Of a DNA stretch of 35,417 nt, positions 30,001-32,429 are shown one piece after another. Position 1 is the first letter of the stretch; each line of letters starts with the position of its first letter. The notes below the pieces were generated by a model that saw only the letters and a program-made list of their open reading frames with translations, was not told where the DNA came from and made no database searches. Both the position numbers and the translations under genes were made by a program. This DNA comes from Fimbriiglobus sp. Its GTDB lineage: Bacteria; Planctomycetota; Planctomycetia; Gemmatales; Gemmataceae. The stretch lies in the NCBI GenBank assembly GCA_025459365.1, contig JALOQR010000011.1, forward strand, positions 1 to 35,417, read 5' to 3'.

Positions 30001-31833
30001 GTGAGCAGTCCACCAACCGAATCCTCGCCGTCCGCCGCCGCCGGTGTAATGGCCGTCGCCTGCTCGGTGATGGCGACCGTCTGCCTTGTGCTGCTCATGC
30101 CGGTGGTGTTTCTGGCGGTGGATCAAGTGACGGGCCAAGGAGTGGGAGCGGAGGGTCTGCAAGCGACCGCTCTCCGGGTCGAGGGCCACTGGATCAGCCC
30201 AGCGGTAAAGCCGCTGCTCGAATGGGCGGCGGGTTGGAACACCTGGGCAAACACCGCCAATGGGTTGGTGACGCAACTCGCCATCGCTGCGATTGTGTTG
30301 CTCATCCTCCGCATCTTGTTGCTGAACGCCGCCGCTCACCTCGCCGGCACCGCTGCCATTGAAGACGCCCGCTTGCTCCGCCGCGATGTGTACACCCACT
30401 GCTACCGACTCGGCACCCTAGCCACCGATTCCGACGAACAGAGCGAAGTAGGCCGGCTCATCACCGACAAAATCGAAGACATCCAGGAAGCCGACATCGC
30501 CGCACGCACCACCGTCCCACGGGTGGTGACTCTCCTGGCCACCGCCGGCATTGTCCTGCTCGTCGTTCACCTGTGGGTCGGGCTGGCGGTGCTGTTTCTG
30601 GGCGGGCTGGTGTGGCTGATCGCCGGGCAGTCGGCCGCATGGTTCCGCCGCGACGCGCGCGTGGCTGAGCGGCGATCCGCCCTGCAGATGTCGGTCATGC
30701 GAGAAAGTCTGCGGCTGATGCTGCTGGTGAAATGCTACTTGATGGAGCGGTTCAGCCAGACGCGAGTGGAGCGACAGTTGGCCGACCTGGCGAAAACGGC
30801 CCGTCGGCGGCACCGTGGTGAAGTGTTGTCGCGGCCGACACTCTACGGGGTCGCGGCCATCACCGGGGTGCTGGTGCTCTATGTCGCCGTGCGGGTGCTG
30901 CTGGGGGGTCAACTCAGCCCGGCTGGGTTGGCGGTGCAAGCGGCCTGCGCGGTAGCCATTGCCATCGGCACCCTCCGATGGGTCGCGGCGAATGTGAAGG
31001 TCCGCCGCGGGCGGGCCGCTGAGGAAGAAGTCGATGAATTCCTCGAGCGCCGCACCGACGCCGGCCAGCCGATCACTGCGAAGTTTCTGCAACCGCTCAC
31101 CCGTAAGCTGGACTTGCTCGAAGTGAGCTACCGTGAACCGGGCACCGGGCGAATGGTGCTGGAACAGGTGTCGGCGAGCATCCCGGCGGGCAAACGAACG
31201 GCCGTGCTCTGCTCCGACCCCGACGAGGCCCGCGCCTTCGCCTTCCTCCTCACCCGATTTGTCGAGCCGACTGCCGGCGAGATTCGATTCGATGGGGAGA
31301 ACACCCGGTGGGTGACTTTTGAATCGCTGCGTACTCAGGTGGCGATGGTGCTGGCCGAGCACACCACGTTCACCGACACCGTCGCGAACAACATCGGGTG
31401 TGGGGATTCGTTCACCCGCCCGCAGATCGTGGAGGCGGCCAAGGTGGCCCACGCACACGGGTTCGTCCAGCAACTGCCGAGCGGATACGAGACGATCGTC
31501 GGCGGAGGTGGGGTAGCCCTGCGACCGGGCGAGCGGTTCCGCATTGCCCTGGCACGGGCCGTACTCCGCGACCCCGCGGTGCTAGTGATTGAGGAACCGG
31601 CCGAGCCGTTCGACCCCGACAGCGTTGCCCTCATCGACGACGCCATCACCCGCCTTCAACCCGGTCGCACCATCGTGATCCTGGCCCGCCGGAGCAGTAC
31701 GGTGAAACGGGCCGATGTGGTCGTCGTCATTCAAGATGGTCGGGTAGTGAACGGGGGCGACCACGACGGAGCGGTCGGCGGGAGTCAGTCGCACAAGGCC
31801 CTCAACCGCCGGGCCGAGGCCGAGGCACGTTAA
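30001..31833 (+). CDS. MsbA-like ABC exporter half-transporter with a non-functional ATPase domain
   Basis: The 610-residue protein has an N-terminal membrane domain and a C-terminal nucleotide-binding-like domain. Membrane helices include VMATVCLVLLMPVVFLAV, LAIAAIVLLILRILLL, TLLATAGIVLLVVHLWVGLAV and YGVAAITGVLVLYVAVRVLL. Exporter-type coupling segments are visible (DKIEDIQEADIA, RRDARVAERRSALQMSVMRE). The C-terminal domain aligns along its whole length to MsbA-type domains, for example GEIRFDGENTRWVTFESLRTQ and NNIGCGDSFTRPQIVEAAKVAHAHGFVQQLPSGYETIV in pieces. Yet Walker A reads CSDPDEARA (404-412, Lys to Ala410) and the Q-loop Gln is Ala452. The signature is LRPGE (507-511), Walker B is VLVIEEP (Asp to Glu531), and the H-loop His is Arg563. 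GTG 30001 has GAGGT upstream. Confidence 0.85.
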   Translation: MSSPPTESSPSAAAGVMAVACSVMATVCLVLLMPVVFLAVDQVTGQGVGAEGLQATALRVEGHWISPAVKPLLEWAAGWNTWANTANGLVTQLAIAAIVLLILRILLLNAAAHLAGTAAIEDARLLRRDVYTHCYRLGTLATDSDEQSEVGRLITDKIEDIQEADIAARTTVPRVVTLLATAGIVLLVVHLWVGLAVLFLGGLVWLIAGQSAAWFRRDARVAERRSALQMSVMRESLRLMLLVKCYLMERFSQTRVERQLADLAKTARRRHRGEVLSRPTLYGVAAITGVLVLYVAVRVLLGGQLSPAGLAVQAACAVAIAIGTLRWVAANVKVRRGRAAEEEVDEFLERRTDAGQPITAKFLQPLTRKLDLLEVSYREPGTGRMVLEQVSASIPAGKRTAVLCSDPDEARAFAFLLTRFVEPTAGEIRFDGENTRWVTFESLRTQVAMVLAEHTTFTDTVANNIGCGDSFTRPQIVEAAKVAHAHGFVQQLPSGYETIVGGGGVALRPGERFRIALARAVLRDPAVLVIEEPAEPFDPDSVALIDDAITRLQPGRTIVILARRSSTVKRADVVVVIQDGRVVNGGDHDGAVGGSQSHKALNRRAEAEAR

Positions 31834-31861: not shown

Positions 31862-32395
31862 TCACCCGCCCAGTAATCCCGCGAACTGCTTGCGGAACTT
31901 CGCCACTTTCGGTGACACCACCGCCATGCAATAGCCCTGCATCGGGTTGTTGCGGTAGAACCCCTGGTGGTAGTCTTCGGCCGGGTAGAACACGTCGAGC
32001 GGGGTCAGTTCGGTGACGATCTTCCCGCCGAATACGCTCATGTTGAGCGCAGCGATGACCTCCGCGGCGGTCTGCTTCTGGGCATCGGTGTGTAAGTAGA
32101 TCGCCGAGCGGTATTGTGGGCCGACGTCTGCCCCCTGGCGGTTGAGCGTCGTCGGGTCGTGAATAGCAAAGAACACTTCAAGCAGTTGCTGGTAGCTCAC
32201 CGCGGTCGGATCGAACGTGATTTGCACCACCTCGGCGTGGCCGGTCGTCTTCTCGCACACCGCTTCGTAAGTCGGGTTCGGCACATGCCCGCCGGTGTAC
32301 CCGGACACCACCCGGCTCACGCCCTTCACCTTCTCGAACACCGCTTCGAGGCACCAAAAGCACCCACCGCCCAAGGTGGCGATTTCGCTCGACAT
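31862..32395 (-). CDS. msrA: Peptide methionine sulfoxide reductase MsrA
   Basis: The 177-residue enzyme reduces methionine-S-sulfoxide in proteins and free methionine. The catalytic motif GCFWC is at residues 11-15, with Cys12 nucleophilic. [18 protein letters not shown], the hallmark [19 protein letters not shown] and [25 protein letters not shown] are all intact, and [15 protein letters not shown] is near the end. A second Cys in MQGYCMAV could act in resolution. ATG 32395 gives [15 protein letters not shown], the usual length before the motif. It lies 34 bases downstream of the photolyase gene on the same strand, probably one transcript, and converges with the ABC gene (28 bases). Confidence 0.96.
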
Positions 32396-32429
32396 GGCAG
32401 ACTCCACAGGGATGCCGAATTGTAGGCGG

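Follow-up and report, generated by a model that had tools for sequence, protein, structure and literature searches.

ABC exporters are defined by their use of ATP, and SUR1/2 and CFTR still bind it through canonical motifs of the nucleotide-binding domain (NBD). Among the ABC-2 permeases, NosY is encoded together with the ATPase NosF, and the coupling helix of this fold has an established role in docking an NBD. The literature describes many ABC exporters with a degenerate site, in the form of one degenerate site beside one canonical site (PMC7756269). Here we describe a gene from a 35,417-nucleotide stretch of Fimbriiglobus sp. DNA (the window) whose product, which we term pABC for pseudo-ABC exporter, is an MsbA/ABCB-type exporter over its entire length. 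A search of the open-access literature, with subscription papers outside its scope, returned no description of a motif-free exporter family, and pABC is, as far as that literature shows, a novel, conserved pseudoenzyme variant of the exporter.

The pABC gene and its catalytic motif positions

The gene occupies 30001..31833 on the forward strand and encodes 610 amino acids, with a GTG start at 30001, GAGG about 7 nt ahead of it in the window sequence, and a frame that stays open for 610 codons up to a TAA stop at 31831-31833, in line with the open frame of the original prediction. Pfam and predicted helices place a transmembrane domain (TMD) with long exporter-type helices at 30025..31050, and Pfam, AlphaFold and structure comparison place an ATPase-like domain, an ABC fold without ATP motifs, at 31105..31800. 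The product thus has type IV exporter architecture, a six-helix exporter TMD lying N-terminal to the NBD in one chain. Both Pfam matches were over the cut-off (ABC_membrane, PF00664, 3e-9, residues 90-309; ABC_tran, 3e-8). In the profile search that had been suggested against MsbA, the best NCBIfam match was indeed MsbA, with pABC residues 69-589 aligned to 37-553 of 572 and the register intact. The phmmer alignments to the PDB chains of ABCB19 and MsbA likewise ran without a frame or register shift, so CSDPDEARA is truly the aligned Walker A. The AlphaFold model, also proposed at the outset, showed a complete exporter fold (mean pLDDT 76.9, about 90 across most of the NBD), with DALI-scale Z scores of about 31 against CmABCB1 and of 29-30 against both MsbA and Sav1866; it fitted the solitary NBD 2ghi at 2.2 A over 247 residues. 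Together, these end-to-end alignments and the predicted fold bear out the claim that the protein is a true MsbA-type homolog.

In the window, pABC is flanked by an M48-like lipoprotein gene on one side and by MsrA (31862-32407, reverse strand) on the other. MsrA in turn adjoins a deoxyribodipyrimidine photolyase-related gene (PF04244; 32430-33980, reverse strand). Alignment showed that the window copy has a shorter N-terminus and a shorter TM1-TM2 loop than other Gemmataceae. In the pABCs of this family (e.g. L007, L014 and L028), TM1 and TM2 are separated by an insert of ~100-150 residues, predicted to lie outside the membrane, which is nearly missing from the window copy.

All five replacements named in the original prediction were recovered in the alignment. 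They are CSDPDEARA for GxxGxGKST at the Walker A position (31210..31236; family consensus [GS]xDPxExxA) and, by column comparison, Ala452 at the Q-loop position (31354..31356), LRPGE for LSGGQ at the signature (31519..31533), Asp to Glu in the Walker B stretch VLVIEE (31579..31596) and Arg563 at the H-loop position (31687..31689), all on the forward strand. Both the catalytic Glu, E532, and the Asp of the D-loop, D538, are retained, and the product is left without the Walker A, LSGGQ and Walker B Asp-Glu of a functional ABC ATPase. The prediction had allowed that a shifted alignment might reveal a real P-loop; the register proved unshifted, and neither the sequence nor the alignments contained a hidden GxxGxGKST near the Walker A position.

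We compared these columns across the pABC family with those of 82 canonical exporters within the same alignment. The canonical exporters were invariant (100%) for the Walker A Gly/Gly/Gly/Lys, the signature Ser and the Walker B Asp. In essentially all pABCs the Walker A Gly triad and the signature Ser are replaced, Ser not being the majority residue at its position, and the Walker B Asp has become Glu (92%). The remaining positions are lost more unevenly: the Walker A Lys is present in 33% of the family against 100% of canonical exporters, the Q-loop Gln in 39% against 98%, and the H-loop His in 44% against 96%. The expectation that orthologs would carry the same five replacements therefore held family-wide for Walker A, the signature and Walker B, and only in part for the Q-loop and H-loop; in the window's own clade the Lys, Gln and His positions are all lost too. 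Because the 82 canonical exporters keep the catalytic residues at 96-100% in the same alignment, the loss of the motifs is not a matter of chance. Furthermore, the residues that occupy these positions recur: Asp406 replaces the Walker A Ser in 87% of the family, "EEP" replaces "DEA" (E531 92%, E532 100%, P533 94%), and Phe follows the signature in 74%. N464, R519, E532 and R564 are invariant (100%) and D538 is kept in 88%; from the standard motif positions, we take the kept residues to be those of the X-loop and TMD/NBD interface, the D-loop and the NBD core. As judged from the sequences, this is a specific replacement pattern and not random decay. The motif loss predicts, although it does not prove, that pABC does not bind nucleotide.

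Distribution and selection within Planctomycetia

When 59 relatives were searched, all genomes of the same genus and most members of the family and order gave a strong pABC match, with internal stops absent from the orthologs. Walker A and the signature are missing from all aligned orthologs, and Glu stands at the Walker B Asp in essentially all of them, whereas the motifs of the true exporters aligned with them are canonical. About two thirds of the class genomes (193/298) gave a match at E <= 1e-118, an approximate count that includes a few canonical exporters (e.g. G508) and leaves out some members that have diverged strongly. Across 392 scanned genomes of the phylum, the motif-dead family was recognised only in the window's class; out-of-class matches reached at most 439 bits, and the two inspected (G111, the best at 439 bits, and G130) were canonical. 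The assignment of this class to Planctomycetia rests on named records with a motif-dead pABC, which comprise Fimbriiglobus sp., several Gemmataceae, Planctomycetaceae, Schlesneria MAGs and others.

Borderline scorers that we fetched were either motif-dead with a permease upstream or canonical without one, with no intermediates. Among the orthologs inspected, borderline cases included, none had an intact Walker A or signature; such orthologs would have pointed to a decaying copy, and the window gene is not one. Six genomes that initially appeared to be without pABC (G022, G032, G025, G017, G028 and G544) do have one directly behind the permease, far more diverged in sequence and just as motif-dead. 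Two extremely divergent pABCs (L196:3419-5278 and L197:3663-5639, both on the reverse strand) could be recognised only from the family profile and from their location after the permease, and one of them has zero Pfam matches. Genomes with pABC also carry several to many canonical exporters.

With the motif columns dropped, a branch with an SH-aLRT support of 100 separated the pABC family from the other sequences, in a quick LG+G4 search for which the tool warned of long rows. Within-genus and within-family pairs gave dN/dS values for the NBD of 0.014, 0.042, 0.058, 0.087, 0.22 and 0.29, which shows purifying selection on the motif-dead domain; the G050/G054 pair, for which G054 had been read in a wrong frame, was excluded. 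The loosest value (0.29) belongs to the window's lineage, G000 against G003, compared with 0.07-0.09 for G001/G002 of the same genus. pABC is a class-wide family, not one odd gene, and we read it as old and vertically kept. The central proposal, that a genuine homolog is maintained by selection in a function other than that of an ATPase, survived both checks that could have overturned it and is supported.

The ABC-2 permease beside pABC

An ABC-2 permease gene lies directly upstream of pABC in 57 of the 68 independent lineages with upstream sequence, and upstream of none of 71 canonical exporters; in the other 11 lineages pABC is unlinked from the permease. The pair is on the same strand in every case (45/45), with a median gap of 64 bp as measured between stop-to-stop frames. 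The neighbourhood clustering held antisense shadow frames, and only Pfam-checked sense families were used. The permease belongs to PF12679, has NosY as its closest solved structure, and carries a strongly conserved EIEGKTAxTLLSKPxxRRxFxxGK motif, whose position presumably corresponds to that of the coupling helix in ABC-2 permeases. An ABC ATPase nearby was considered as a hidden motor and rejected: in neighbourhoods of 8-19 kb no ABC ATPase is conserved beside the pair, and only scattered, non-conserved cases occur. No canonical exporter was a conserved neighbour of pABC in 60 neighbourhoods.

Linkage differs within the genus of the window. The permease and pABC are linked in G001 and G002, and unlinked in G000, the genome that contains the window, and in the sister genome G003. 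In G000 the permease gene lies on contig C371 (L181:144-1475), away from pABC; as read from the sequence, RNA polymerase sigma-factor-like, rhodanese-like and thioredoxin-like genes stand beside it. The window gene thus has two of the traits proposed for the family, being motif-dead and grouping with the pABCs, and its permease is on another contig.

Around the pair, an inositol monophosphatase gene lies downstream in many Gemmataceae, and an acylphosphatase or NAD kinase gene lies upstream in some. Some genomes of the class (e.g. G047, G052 and G056) and genomes of other classes have the permease but no pABC; the permease therefore does not strictly need pABC. In those other classes, no ABC ATPase was found in the roughly 1.5 kb around the permease. 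Their permease homologs (L258, L260, L263, L265, L252 and L253) lie near parA/parB and acylphosphatase genes with no adjacent ATPase, and are followed by a calcineurin-like phosphoesterase (metallophosphoesterase) gene. This other-class locus may be linked to the division site or to the segregation of chromosomes.

Candidate roles and comparison with described systems

We lean, at somewhat better than even confidence, towards pABC being a family of pseudo-ATPase exporters that act independently of nucleotide as partners of the ABC-2 permease. pABC would form a homodimer, and its NBD-like domains may clamp the dimer or provide a platform for coupling beneath the membrane helices without any need for nucleotide, because the X-loop, TMD/NBD interface and D-loop residues are kept and the nucleotide contacts are not. 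It would then be a structural or regulatory partner of the permease, which might either be driven by an ATPase encoded elsewhere or have itself turned ATP-independent. Of the three roles envisaged originally, that of a scaffolding or regulatory membrane protein appears to fit best, with a channel as a further candidate. Several observations run counter to this reading. A domain with a purely structural role would not be expected to keep its catalytic Glu invariant. In G000 and G003 the gene is unlinked from the permease and, in the window's lineage, under looser constraint; the pair is apart in eleven lineages, and the permease also exists in genomes without pABC. More tentatively, the pair may constitute a two-permease machine without an ATPase of its own, in which an MsbA-fold, nucleotide-free platform and an ABC-2 permease carry out ATP-independent transport or membrane organisation across the class.

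Could pABC instead act alone, as an ATP-independent transporter or scramblase whose TMD moves its substrate by an ion gradient or downhill, the dead NBD merely holding the dimer together? Such a transporter is conceivable because MsbA without its NBD still performs proton-coupled ethidium efflux, and the same ATP-free transport has been described for NBD-less LmrA (PMC4979069); the preserved fold and TMD/NBD interface residues of pABC agree with it. However, it leaves the strong operon pairing with the ABC-2 permease unexplained. Nor did the TMD show any striking new conserved acidic residues within the membrane; its conserved charges fall at positions that are charged in canonical exporters too, or in the intracellular helices, and we regard this explanation as unlikely. 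The invariant Glu532 leaves room for an unusual ligand site, so that pABC might be a switch in which Glu532, the "GxDxxEK" loop and the retained Gln and His bind ATP or another ligand. The specific set of residues kept at the Asp406, Lys, Gln and His positions speaks for such a switch. Against it, the P-loop glycines have given way to mostly acidic or bulky residues that would be expected to repel phosphates, neither the Ser of the signature nor the Asp of Walker B survives, and the window's own clade is also without Lys, Gln and His; we therefore hold it to be improbable.

A heterodimer in the style of TM287/288, TAP or TmrAB, with pABC as the dead half and a canonical partner encoded elsewhere, would accord with the frequency of degenerate sites among heterodimeric type IV exporters (PMC7756269) and with the canonical exporters present in the same genomes. 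Known heterodimers, however, keep one canonical composite site. With Walker A and the signature lost on the same chain, each composite site of a pABC heterodimer would be incomplete on one side whatever the partner, and the conserved neighbour of pABC is an ABC-2 permease rather than an exporter. This role, also among those first envisaged, is weakened accordingly and seems to us quite improbable. Least credible of all is a decaying pseudogene in the window's genome. The unlinked genes of G000 and G003, the shortened N-terminus and the loosest dN/dS in the genus would suit decay, but the reading frame is complete, no ortholog has an internal stop, dN/dS is far under 1, and the whole class shares the core motif losses.

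Partnership with the ABC-2 permease thus remains our preferred reading, and both pABC and the permease appear repurposed. The family indicates that the exporter scaffold can turn pseudoenzyme, keeping the fold and coupling interface and dropping the core ATP motifs, and it offers a natural test of NBD roles other than ATP hydrolysis. The pairing with an ATPase-less ABC-2 permease supplies a directly testable partner. pABC genes are also prone to mis-annotation, because they match general ABC transporter families.

Set beside the MsbA/ABCB type IV exporters (E. coli MsbA, Sav1866), pABC shares their domain order and fold, the NBD helical subdomain, the X-loop, ALARA, the D-loop Asp and the post-H-loop arginine. 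Unlike them, it has no Walker A and no LSGGQ, and its Walker B Asp is Glu; as read from these motifs, pABC cannot be a normal ATP-driven flippase. With TM287/288, TmrAB, TAP and BmrCD it has in common degenerate catalytic residues that are kept by selection. Those heterodimers have one canonical composite site and a degenerate site that still binds ATP, whereas a single pABC chain has lost both Walker A and the signature, and no gene for a partner exporter is conserved with it. The planctomycete permease likewise departs from NosY of NosDFY, the solved structure closest to it, in having no conserved ATPase neighbour. In SUR1/2 (ABCC8/9) and CFTR (ABCC7) the exporter fold has similarly been turned to other ends, regulation for SUR and gating for CFTR (roles as listed in PMC7756269); in contrast to both, pABC is left without any core ATP motif.
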